From Pseudomonadota bacterium (GTDB lineage: Bacteria > CALINM01), in NCBI GenBank assembly GCA_026418415.1, contig JAOABK010000011.1:1-58317 (forward strand): a stretch of DNA of 58,317 bases, given 5' to 3'. The notes below the pieces were generated by a model. That model made no database searches. It was not told the origin of the DNA and was given only the letters and a program-made list of their open reading frames with translations. Shown in pieces: positions 24,227 through 51,789 of the stretch. Made by a program: the position numbers and the translations under genes. Each line of letters begins with the position of its first letter. The first letter of the stretch is position 1.

Positions 24227-25300
24227 CTAATCCTGATGGGTGATATAAATATCATTGAAAACATCTGATAGTTTCTCAAAAATCAATAAAATTTCTGGAT
24301 CGAAGTGATAGGGCATTGTTCTACCATCACCTTTCAAAATAATCTCACAGGCTTCTTTGTGATTAAAAGCCTTTTTATAAGGCCTCTCACTCCTTAGTGC
24401 ATCGTATTGATCGCAGAGTATCATAATCCTGCCTTCAATTGGAATTTCTTCCCCCTTTAGGCCTTTTGGATATCCAGAACCATCAAATCTTTCATGGTGG
24501 TGAAGGGCTATAGATTCAGCAAGCATTATTTGAGGAAATGTAGATCCAGAGAGAATATTCGCTCCTATCGTCGTATGACTCTTCATTATTTCAAATTCCT
24601 CTGGAGTAAGTCTACCAGGTTTAAGAAGAATTGCATCAGGAATGCCTACTTTTCCTATGTCGTGCATTGGCGCAGCAACTTCAATATTTTCAACGAACCT
24701 ATTGTCCATACCCAATTCTTTGGCAATAAGACTCGCATAAAGCCCCATTCTTTTTATATGCATACCAGTATCATCATCCCTGTACTCTGCTGCATAGGTT
24801 AGTCTATTTATCATTTCAGAACTTGCATGCTTAAGCATATCAAGGGCTTCTTTAAGTTCTTTCGTTCTTTGATAAACTGTTTTTTCAAGAATTTCTTTAT
24901 AATTCCTTTCCATTAATAGTAGATGTCTATACTTTCCTGCCTTTTTTAGAGTATATATTAATTGTTCTGGCTTGTAGGGTTTAATTATAAAATCGTAAGC
25001 ACCTTTTCTTATTGCTTCAACTGCAACATCAATTTCAGCGTATGCGGTCATAAGAATAACGGGAATATCAGGTTCTAAATGATGAATTCTACTTAGAAGT
25101 TCGATCCCATCGACTTTTGGCATTCTTATATCGGTTAATACTATATCGAATTTGTCCTTTGAAAATCTGTTATAGGCCTCTTCTCCATTAGAACAGCTTG
25201 TTACATTAAAACCATTAGCAATGAGTAAAGATGAAGCTGCTTCTAAAGAATATAGATCATCATCTACAACCAGAACCCTTAAATCACTTGTCTCTATCAT
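24227..25300 (-). CDS. Response regulator with HD-GYP phosphodiesterase domain
   Basis: 357 residues. A receiver domain (about 8-125) has phospho-acceptor Asp in VLTDIRMPK, the acid pair VDDD and Lys in IIKPYK. A short coiled linker leads to an HD-GYP domain (about 165-345) with [10 protein letters not shown], the [17 protein letters not shown] motif and [14 protein letters not shown]. It probably hydrolyses cyclic di-GMP on phosphorylation by an unlinked histidine kinase. It starts five bases after the stop of a small putative selenoprotein gene and is probably translated from the same mRNA. Confidence 0.92.
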
Positions 25301-25305
25301 AATTA

Positions 25306-25461
25306 TTATTTCTTTTCATCTTTTTCTGTTTTCTTATTATCACATCGAGACCCGATGTCTGGATCGTACCCTCAACCCCTTATACCCAAACGGGGAAAAA
25401 CTACTTTAACAATTACTACCCAGAGAATAAAAAAAACCAATAAAAATATTATACCTCTCAT
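25306..25461 (-). CDS. Putative selenoprotein: 51-codon membrane protein with in-frame UGA
   Basis: Minus-strand ATG at 25461 has a GGAGAG ribosome site and a promoter with TATAAT upstream. The frame runs 29 codons (one hydrophobic helix [18 protein letters not shown], then basic residues), meets TGA at 25372-25374, and continues in the same frame for 21 codons ([14 protein letters not shown] and a charged tail) to TAA. Nineteen bases after the TGA lies a 17-nt hairpin with loop GGUCU, as in the E. coli fdhF SECIS. I therefore read the TGA as selenocysteine (residue 30), with a Cys ten residues later (40). Alternatives are a 29-residue peptide or a gene broken by a nonsense mutation. No homologue is recognised. 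Its position ahead of the HD-GYP gene suggests a link to envelope or redox signalling, but this is inference. Confidence 0.65.
25342..25358 (-). promoter_or_regulatory. Candidate bacterial SECIS element
   Basis: Minus-strand ACATCGGGTCTCGATGT forms six perfect base pairs around the five-base loop GGTCT. The loop starts 20 nt after the in-frame TGA. Loop guanines at the first two positions and this spacing match known SelB-binding hairpins (fdhF: GGUC loop at +19). Confidence 0.65.
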
Positions 25462-25485
25462 GATCTCTCCAGTCTTTTTACTGTA

Positions 25486-25513
25486 ATTATAACAGAATTT
25501 TCTGGATAATCAA
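25486..25513 (-). promoter_or_regulatory. Promoter of the putative selenoprotein / HD-GYP operon
   Basis: Minus strand: TTGATT (25508-25513), 16 bases, TATAAT (25486-25491) preceded by an extended -10 TG. The selenoprotein ATG follows 25 bases further. Confidence 0.65.
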
Positions 25514-25517
25514 AAAA

Positions 25518-25970
25518 CTAAAAGTTTTCTACTTGTCTCATTGCTTCGTAGGCAACAATGGCAACAGAATTTGATAAATTTAAACATCTAACAGGTCCAA
25601 ACATCGGTATTGTGTATATTCTTTCTGAAAATTTATCAAATATAATTTCTGGAAAACCTGATGTTTCAGAGCCAAAGATCAACCAATCATCCTTACTAAA
25701 TTTTATCGAAGTATAAGGCTTTTTCCCCTTAGAAGAAAAAAAATAAAAATCACCCTTTAACTGTTTTAAAAAGTCATCTAAAGATTCATGTAAAACAAGG
25801 TTTAAATAATGCCAGTAATCAAGTCCAGCCCTTTTTAAATATTTATCATGAATAGAAAAACCTAAGGGTTTTACAAGGTGCAACTCACAATTTATTGCAA
25901 CGCAAAGCCTTGCAATATTTCCCGTGTTTGGCGGTATCTCAGGATGAATTAACACTATTCTTAAAGGCAT
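25518..25970 (-). CDS. trmL: tRNA (cytidine/uridine-34-2'-O)-methyltransferase
   Basis: 150-residue SPOUT methyltransferase. The trefoil-knot SAM site reads LIFGSETSGFP, IPMFGPVRCLNLSNSVAIVAYE, and the N-terminal IPPNTGNIARLC is typical of TrmL/YibK. It methylates the wobble base of tRNA-Leu isoacceptors, including the TAA type encoded at 1761. Standard length. A separate transcription unit from the downstream operon is suggested by the promoter in the following 56-base gap. Confidence 0.92.
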   Translation of the reverse strand: MPLRIVLIHPEIPPNTGNIARLCVAINCELHLVKPLGFSIHDKYLKRAGLDYWHYLNLVLHESLDDFLKQLKGDFYFFSSKGKKPYTSIKFSKDDWLIFGSETSGFPEIIFDKFSERIYTIPMFGPVRCLNLSNSVAIVAYEAMRQVENF

Positions 25971-27123: not shown

Positions 27124-27651
27124 CTATTTCTTCTCCTTCTTTGGCATCATTTTTTTAGTTTTATCTTTCATCATACTCTTTTTGCTCATCATAATGTCTC
27201 TCATCTTTTTGTATTGTTCATCAGTTAAAATTGTTCTGACCTTTTTCATAGCCTTTAGCATCTCTATATGATGGGATGATCTAATATCAGAAATTTTCTT
27301 TGTTGCAAGTATTGCTTTATCTAAGTCAAAATCTTTTGGTTCCATTACCTCCATAAGTTCAATCTCAGCAATCTTTATATCTGCTTTAAAACGGGCATTG
27401 AGTTTCATCATTTCTCTGTGAATAGGAATAATCTTGGACTTCTGTTCTTCTGTTAGCCCAATCTTTTCTGCGTTTTCCAAACACATGCCTATATTGTCAT
27501 CCATCATATCCATATTCATTCCCCTCATACCATCTTTCATCATCATATCTCCATGCTGATGACCCATCATCTGGTCTTTTTTCATATCCATCATTTGAGC
27601 ATTACCAATGCTTACTAATAACATGCAAATCAAAATAATTACCCTTTTCAT
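27124..27651 (-). CDS. Spy/CpxP-like Met- and His-rich periplasmic protein
   Basis: 175 residues. A signal peptide (first about 18 residues) is followed by a segment of about 35 residues very rich in Met with His and Asp (MMGHQHGDMMMKDGMRG). The helical LTxxQ domain follows with the motifs GLTEEQKSKI and ILTDEQYKKM characteristic of Spy, CpxP and ZraP, ending in a Lys-rich tail. Probable role: periplasmic chaperone or metal-responsive protein; Met/His clusters suggest copper or silver binding. Its stop codon region overlaps nothing; the start overlaps the thioesterase stop by four bases. Confidence 0.82.
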   Translation of the reverse strand: MKRVIILICMLLVSIGNAQMMDMKKDQMMGHQHGDMMMKDGMRGMNMDMMDDNIGMCLENAEKIGLTEEQKSKIIPIHREMMKLNARFKADIKIAEIELMEVMEPKDFDLDKAILATKKISDIRSSHHIEMLKAMKKVRTILTDEQYKKMRDIMMSKKSMMKDKTKKMMPKKEKK

Positions 27652-51565: not shown

Positions 51566-51742
51566 ATGGGCATCAGTCGATGGGGCAGGTCTTCTGGCTT
51601 GTGCTTCATCCTACTTGCTCCGCCTTCCCATTCCTTTTTATTCGGAACAGTGGCTAATTTAATGGAGCGTTCGTCTGCACTCACAGCGGCGGGGCCGCTC
51701 CCGATTTGCTCTAAAGCTTCACGGGATTCCCTAACTCCCCAT
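51566..51742 (-). promoter_or_regulatory. Cobalamin (AdoCbl-type) riboswitch
   Basis: Contains on the minus strand the B12 box AGCCAGAAGACCTGCC (51584-51599), the conserved GCCACTG (51648-51654), GGGAGCGGCCCCGCCGCTGTGA-like paired region near 51680-51705 and the AGGGAATC...GTGAA motif near the 5' end. A short closing stem ATGGG/CCCAT joins the ends. It precedes the cobalamin biosynthesis and cobalt transport operon, with an intrinsic terminator behind it. Confidence 0.95.
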
Positions 51743-51759
51743 GACAAACACTTTGAGAT

Positions 51760-51789
51760 AGGTTACAACATAAAATTGTGCTTTGTCAA
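51760..51789 (-). promoter_or_regulatory. Promoter of the cobalamin operon
   Basis: Minus strand: perfect TTGACA (51784-51789), 18 bases, TAACCT (51760-51765) with an upstream TG. Transcription would start a few bases before the aptamer. Confidence 0.6.

Follow-up and report, generated by a model that had tools for sequence, protein, structure and literature searches.

In E. coli fdhF, the gene for formate dehydrogenase H, the SECIS hairpin follows shortly after the UGA codon and has a short stem with the loop GGUCU. Among eukaryotic proteins, SELENOK and SELENOS are small and span the membrane once, their selenocysteine (Sec) lying in a C-terminal region that is disordered and probably cytosolic. 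Published selenoprotein searches lean on homologues with cysteine (Cys) or on annotated open reading frames (ORFs), and a family of ~50 residues that nearly always carries Sec falls through searches of either kind. The catalogued bacterial selenoprotein families have in common an in-frame UGA, a SECIS inside the coding region, and dependence on selB and selC. A review from 2026 tabulates 119 prokaryotic families and subfamilies, including TsoA/B/C/X/Y and the KCU-star family, and also lists the hypothetical proteins GOS_B/C, DG, DW, and DF (PMC13188914).

The gene described here lies in a stretch of 58,317 nucleotides of bacterial DNA, which we call the window. It is like the catalogued families in the three features just named, and like fdhF in its short stem and GGUCU loop near the UGA, but the latter likeness is limited to the decoding signal: formate dehydrogenase is not related to the protein encoded here. 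With SELENOK and SELENOS it shares a single membrane helix and Sec in a disordered tail. This is an analogy only, which says nothing on common descent; the Sec here adjoins the membrane behind a conserved motif, some 20 or more residues from the C-terminus, and a profile search of the chains present in the PDB gave no match. A further comparison is with the DsbD/CcdA and thioredoxin systems, whose genes adjoin some members of the family and whose cysteine redox chemistry at the inner membrane the protein may share, although it has no thioredoxin fold, only one helix, and no homology to them. We propose the working name LPxLG-TU membrane selenoprotein. The decoding mechanism is already known; what is new is the family itself and the fact that it relies almost exclusively on Sec.

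The candidate gene in the window

Translated with TGA as Sec (U), the gene comprises 51 codons on the minus strand (25461-25306). It runs from an ATG at 25461 through an in-frame TGA at residue 30 (25374-25372), at which homologues also have TGA, to a TAA stop (25308-25306) that follows 21 codons after the TGA and is adjoined by a second TAA. The first-pass annotation of this DNA had described just such an ORF with a 21-codon continuation, and the translation bears it out. It had also placed a promoter and a ribosome site ahead of the gene. The ribosome site is a Shine-Dalgarno sequence, GGAGAG (25465-25470, minus strand), with its GGAG 5 nt before the ATG. The promoter-like TTGATT-16-TATAAT (25513-25486, minus strand) is present as well, but constitutes weak evidence, with two such sites found in this AT-rich stretch against 2.5 expected by chance. 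The single membrane helix that had been proposed is recovered by AlphaFold2 on the window protein, which gives a helix over residues 2-24 (25390-25458, minus strand; pLDDT about 90 over residues 1-20) and then a disordered tail; the hydropathy of the members likewise indicates an N-terminal transmembrane helix.

On the downstream side, an HD-GYP response regulator taken from the ORF list (24227-25300, minus strand) starts 5 nt past the selenoprotein stop, exactly as the annotation had it. An HD-GYP regulator also lies 3′ of the gene in a genome of the same genus (G001), where the counterpart (L183:5496-6569) has response regulator and HD domains. The upstream gene in the ORF list (25518-25970, minus strand) is one that we take, from its sequence, to encode a SPOUT-type tRNA methyltransferase.

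Taken alone, the window locus makes an only suggestive case for Sec. When the 2019 TGA triplets of the window were filtered for an upstream ORF of at least 25 codons, an extension of at least 15, and a SECIS-like stem of at least 6 bp, two passed; the one other than residue 30 (54820, minus strand) was set aside, as it has neither a membrane helix nor the family motif. The first-pass annotation had judged the combination of open continuation, ribosome site, promoter, stem, and loop to be unlikely by chance. Neither promoter nor hairpin is significant on its own, and it is the set of homologues that lifts the locus above chance.

Homologues, novelty, and the Sec machinery

Searching 60 genomes with the recoded protein gave G001 (64% identity) and a member of the same taxonomic family (G002, 46%), which both have TGA at this codon, together with distant matches, several of which had one TGA. 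A six-member profile run over 386 genomes brought in dozens more members, nearly all with a single TGA, and a 64-member profile matched 45 of those genomes at E up to 0.001, two of which (G143 and G320) look like chance. The family is present in about 43 of 386 whole genomes across the bacterial domain, nearly always with TGA at the same codon. Cultured bacteria that have the gene include Citrifermentans bremense R1 (L175:3446-3595, plus strand; MNELLMLVGFFVFWVVLQRYILPRLGVQTUMSPSCAPGDRGEKEKKEQEK) and Geomobilimonas luticola JCM 17780 (L074:257-409, plus strand). One member, in G248 (L250 / L208:3078-3197), has the Arg codon CGA where others have the Sec TGA. Its genome has SelB, and either the Sec codon was lost naturally or the assembly is wrong there. 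Among plasmids, tblastn turned up no annotated copy.

We then left the Sec codon open, as TGN, in a DNA pattern of the conserved core and ran it over about 85,000 species genomes (GTDB). At least 118 contigs matched. Among the matches listed, 113 had TGA, 108 of these being scored with an upstream membrane helix, and two had TGC with a helix and are genuine Cys homologues. One of these, from Verrucomicrobiota (L108:7736-7924, plus strand), reads TCMSCCCK; the other, from Deltaproteobacteria (L181:4501-4683, plus strand), precedes a DsbD-thioredoxin fusion. One TGG and two TGT among the matches listed have no helix and are at chance level. As the pattern demanded Met after the codon, the Sec:Cys ratio of 113:2 among the matches listed holds for that major form; it sets the family apart from those catalogued, in which the motif is absent. 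The matches listed include Deltaproteobacteria, Desulfobacterales, Geobacter relatives, Acidobacteria, Planctomycetes, Verrucomicrobia, Armatimonadetes, and Spirochaetes, as well as KSB1, KSB3, Zixibacteria, Margulisbacteria, Myxococcota, Anaerolineales, and Cyanobacteria-labelled MAGs.

The annotation had stated that no known family fits, and this holds against Pfam, NCBIfam 20.0, the PDB, and the table of the 2026 review. No model in Pfam or NCBIfam 20.0 credibly matches the window protein or any of 64 members, the weak matches to Arabinose_trans (E 0.015) and DUF5337 (E 0.0011) not being credible. The family search used here did recognise the recent selenoprotein model NF049953, so recent selenoprotein families are covered by it. 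With the family profile A4, no PDB chain was found at E up to 1. The motif [LF]P[RK][LF]G[VI]xTU has no counterpart in the 119-family table (PMC13188914), and the 2025 deep-Sep list is without a corresponding motif. Full-text literature, taken as that beyond subscription journals, bioRxiv, and GenBank annotations, yielded nothing relevant on the motif or on small membrane selenoproteins; an unpublished or annotation-only notice of the family is possible.

The source genome is able to insert selenocysteine. It has selA (497.8 bits), selB (360.6 bits), the tRNA-Sec gene selC (72.6 bits against a cut-off of 47), and selD (309.7 bits; G000:C95:51038-51943, L252). The selD gene has one in-frame TGA and is probably itself a selenoprotein gene, so that the genome supplies its own control for UGA as a Sec codon. 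In some candidate phyla UGA stands for Gly or Trp, and a changed genetic code of the lineage, by which the codon would be read as another amino acid, was considered on that account. Given that selA-D, tRNA-Sec, and a SECIS-type stem are all present, and that unrelated lineages retain this TGA, whose occurrence follows that of SelB, we regard a changed code as improbable to the point of being negligible.

The link with SelB is seen at two scales. SelB is above the cut-off in 170 of the 386 panel genomes, and a SelB match at E <1e-80 was present in all 41 family-positive panel genomes checked by hand, the bulk of other translation-factor matches lying at E of about 1e-53 to 1e-62. Co-occurrence of family and SelB in the panel has a hypergeometric probability of 1.2e-16, which treats genomes as independent when they are not fully so. 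In the class of G310, to which Geobacter relatives belong and which we infer to be Desulfuromonadia, the gene is found in 165 of 195 genomes and SelB in 176 (both, 160; SelB only, 16; gene only, 5; neither, 14; Fisher 1.3e-9). The five genomes with the gene but no SelB match are all drafts of 110 to 340 contigs.

Coding constraint and the SECIS hairpin

The family motif follows a hydrophobic helix, often with W, and in its fuller form reads [VIL][LF]P[RK][LF]G[VI]xT-U, mostly then MSxxC. In 139 members, Sec is mostly preceded by 29 codons, and the tail, which is charged and disordered, mostly has 17-38 residues. Cys stands at U+5 in 108 of the 139, whilst the window protein has it at U+10 instead. 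Seven of the 139 have no Cys after Sec at all, so that a Sec-Cys pair cannot be essential.

The region after the UGA is under coding constraint, judging from its pattern of substitutions. Across 226 close pairs, differences after the UGA number 484, 314, and 814 at codon positions 1, 2, and 3, respectively (pairs share sequences, and the counts are descriptive), and single-codon changes in these pairs are synonymous in 54% of cases in frame versus 19-21% in the other frames. Between the source genome and G001, one 10-residue stretch holds three differences, all of them synonymous.

The window hairpin, ACATCG-GGTCT-CGATGT (25358-25342, minus strand), was identified by folding and has 6 bp and the 5-nt loop GGUCU. 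It begins 13 nt after the TGA, with its loop 19 nt after the UGA. Position and loop are as the first-pass annotation had them. The 60 nt that follow the UGA fold with a minimum free energy (MFE) of −8.5 kcal/mol, which by itself is no better than that of shuffles (z −0.43). The bSECIS model calls for an apical loop of 3-9 nt, an upper stem of 4-16 bp, a G within the first two loop positions, a spacing of 16-37 nt, and an MFE of at most −7.5 kcal/mol (PMC13188914, Fig. 2), and the window hairpin lies within all of these limits. Its stem is identical in G001 and compensated in G002 (ACGCTG/CAGTGT vs ACATCG/CGATGT in the source genome).

Of 137 distinct Sec members, 83% have an uninterrupted stem of 6 bp or more at SECIS distance, versus 17% of shuffles, and 96% versus 46% have a G within the first two loop positions. 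RNAalifold on a mixed set of members gave no consensus because the hairpin register varies among subgroups, and fixed registers were tested per subgroup instead. In the main subgroup, for which the register was fixed on four pairs, the next outward pairs are paired in 34 of 36 and 35 of 36 sequences, with several pair types; these outward pairs represent covariation that is independent of the choice of register.

The simplest objection to Sec is that the UGA is an ordinary stop, with the product a 29-residue membrane peptide and the frame beyond it open by chance. A good start and a helix before the UGA in the members would suit such a peptide, as would a window hairpin that is unremarkable against shuffles. 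An ordinary stop should, however, appear as TAA or TAG in many members, yet the codon is nearly always TGA, with Cys in two. The conserved C at U+5, the coding-type substitutions, and the compensated SECIS-type stems past the UGA speak against it too, as does an occurrence that tracks SelB. We consider an ordinary stop very improbable.

The first-pass annotation had proposed a new selenoprotein, to be checked by looking for homologues with Cys or TGA at residue 30, for conservation after the TGA, and for selA, selB, selC, and selD in the same genome. With TGA in dozens of genomes and two Cys homologues, coding constraint together with a compensated hairpin, and all four genes in the genome, sequence comparison supports that reading, and the family is far larger than the single locus showed. 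UGA 30 is, we are strongly confident, decoded as Sec, and the gene a member of a new selenoprotein family; this confidence applies to Sec decoding and the new family and does not extend to the redox step discussed below. The decoding factors would be SelB and tRNA-Sec, guided by the hairpin that closely follows the codon.

Membrane topology, genomic neighbours, and possible role

The product is predicted to be a single-pass membrane protein with its Sec at the membrane surface, right after [LF]P[RK][LF]G[VI]xT. Averaged over the 139 members, net charge is −0.5 across the eight N-terminal residues and +1.5 beyond the helix, and by the positive-inside rule this distribution would put the N-terminus outside and the Sec and charged tail in the cytoplasm.

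Our preferred, though tentative, view of function, to which we give somewhat less than even weight, is that the LPxLG-TU protein is a membrane-anchored selenol redox protein. The selenol would react with an oxidant or disulfide at the inner membrane face, Sec would form a selenenylsulfide with a downstream Cys (usually that at U+5, and U+10 in the window protein), and the selenenylsulfide would be reset by thioredoxin-type reductants. Support is indirect, and comes from thioredoxin, DsbD/CcdA, DUF302, and YgaP-type membrane domain neighbours and from the Cys homologue that stands before the DsbD-thioredoxin fusion. The close neighbours of some members are genes for thioredoxin, DsbD/CcdA, DUF302, a YgaP-type membrane domain, and metallo-beta-lactamase/rhodanese proteins, in small counts and without a formal background. 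In one class, CcdA-like and thioredoxin-like genes occur at nine to ten of 39 loci, encoded on the other strand and no further than about 1.3 kb away.

Neither a set of 141 loci from many phyla nor one of 40 loci from a single class showed a conserved operon partner. Neighbours vary, often lie on the other strand, and are lineage-specific; most members stand alone, also in the sampled class. An ECF sigma gene is directly downstream in nine Desulfobacterales-type loci (L071, L076, L096, L106, L112, L131, L150, L154, and L157), with anti-sigma-like genes next in some, and ArsR and efflux genes also adjoin some members. Both the ECF sigma neighbours of the Desulfobacterales type and the HD-GYP neighbours of the window's genus are lineage-specific.

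Given Sec, these neighbours bear on two further roles. In the first, the protein would belong to a larger complex as a small membrane subunit, or would regulate one, and its Sec would sense redox state for a partner, for example a sigma factor or a sensor kinase. The ECF sigma and anti-sigma genes would fit such a role, as would the HD-GYP response regulator that follows the gene in both genomes of the window's genus, and the small size and one conserved helix are in keeping with it; with such neighbours confined to their lineages and most members standing alone, we think it unlikely. In the second, Sec would be a metal or Fe-S ligand, or the protein a small one that handles selenium or metals, and not a partner in thiol-disulfide redox exchange. 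Bitopic proteins of small size often act as regulators or chaperones. The TCMSCCCK of the Verrucomicrobiota homologue and the DUF302, ArsR, efflux, and ECF sigma/anti-sigma genes beside some members would agree with metal or selenium handling. Near-invariance is limited to Sec, however, the other Cys being variable or absent, which implies few fixed ligands, and no neighbour is fixed. We rate this role as just as unlikely as that of subunit or sensor.

As to the family at large, we lean, by a little, towards reading it as a near-obligate-Sec membrane microprotein family, found in most of one class and here and there in many phyla, whose selenium chemistry at the inner membrane does without a thioredoxin fold and is rarely replaceable by Cys. 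The family may help many lineages to keep the Sec decoding trait. On the same reading, gene callers, which stop at UGA, and homology methods, which depend on Cys relatives, would have missed it. Given its presence in about 43 of the 386 genomes and 165 of the 195 of one class, the selenoproteomes of well-studied anaerobes are probably incomplete. The question raised is what selenium has to do, and sulfur seldom does, in a membrane protein of 50 residues.

Three other features of the window are recorded here. A predicted secreted protein rich in Met and His (MMDMKKDQMMGHQHGDMMM...; 27124-27651, minus strand) is perhaps metal-related. A cluster of five tRNA genes lies at 1093-1845 on the plus strand, and a cobalamin riboswitch (Rfam RF00174, 90.7 bits) at 51567-51785 on the minus strand.
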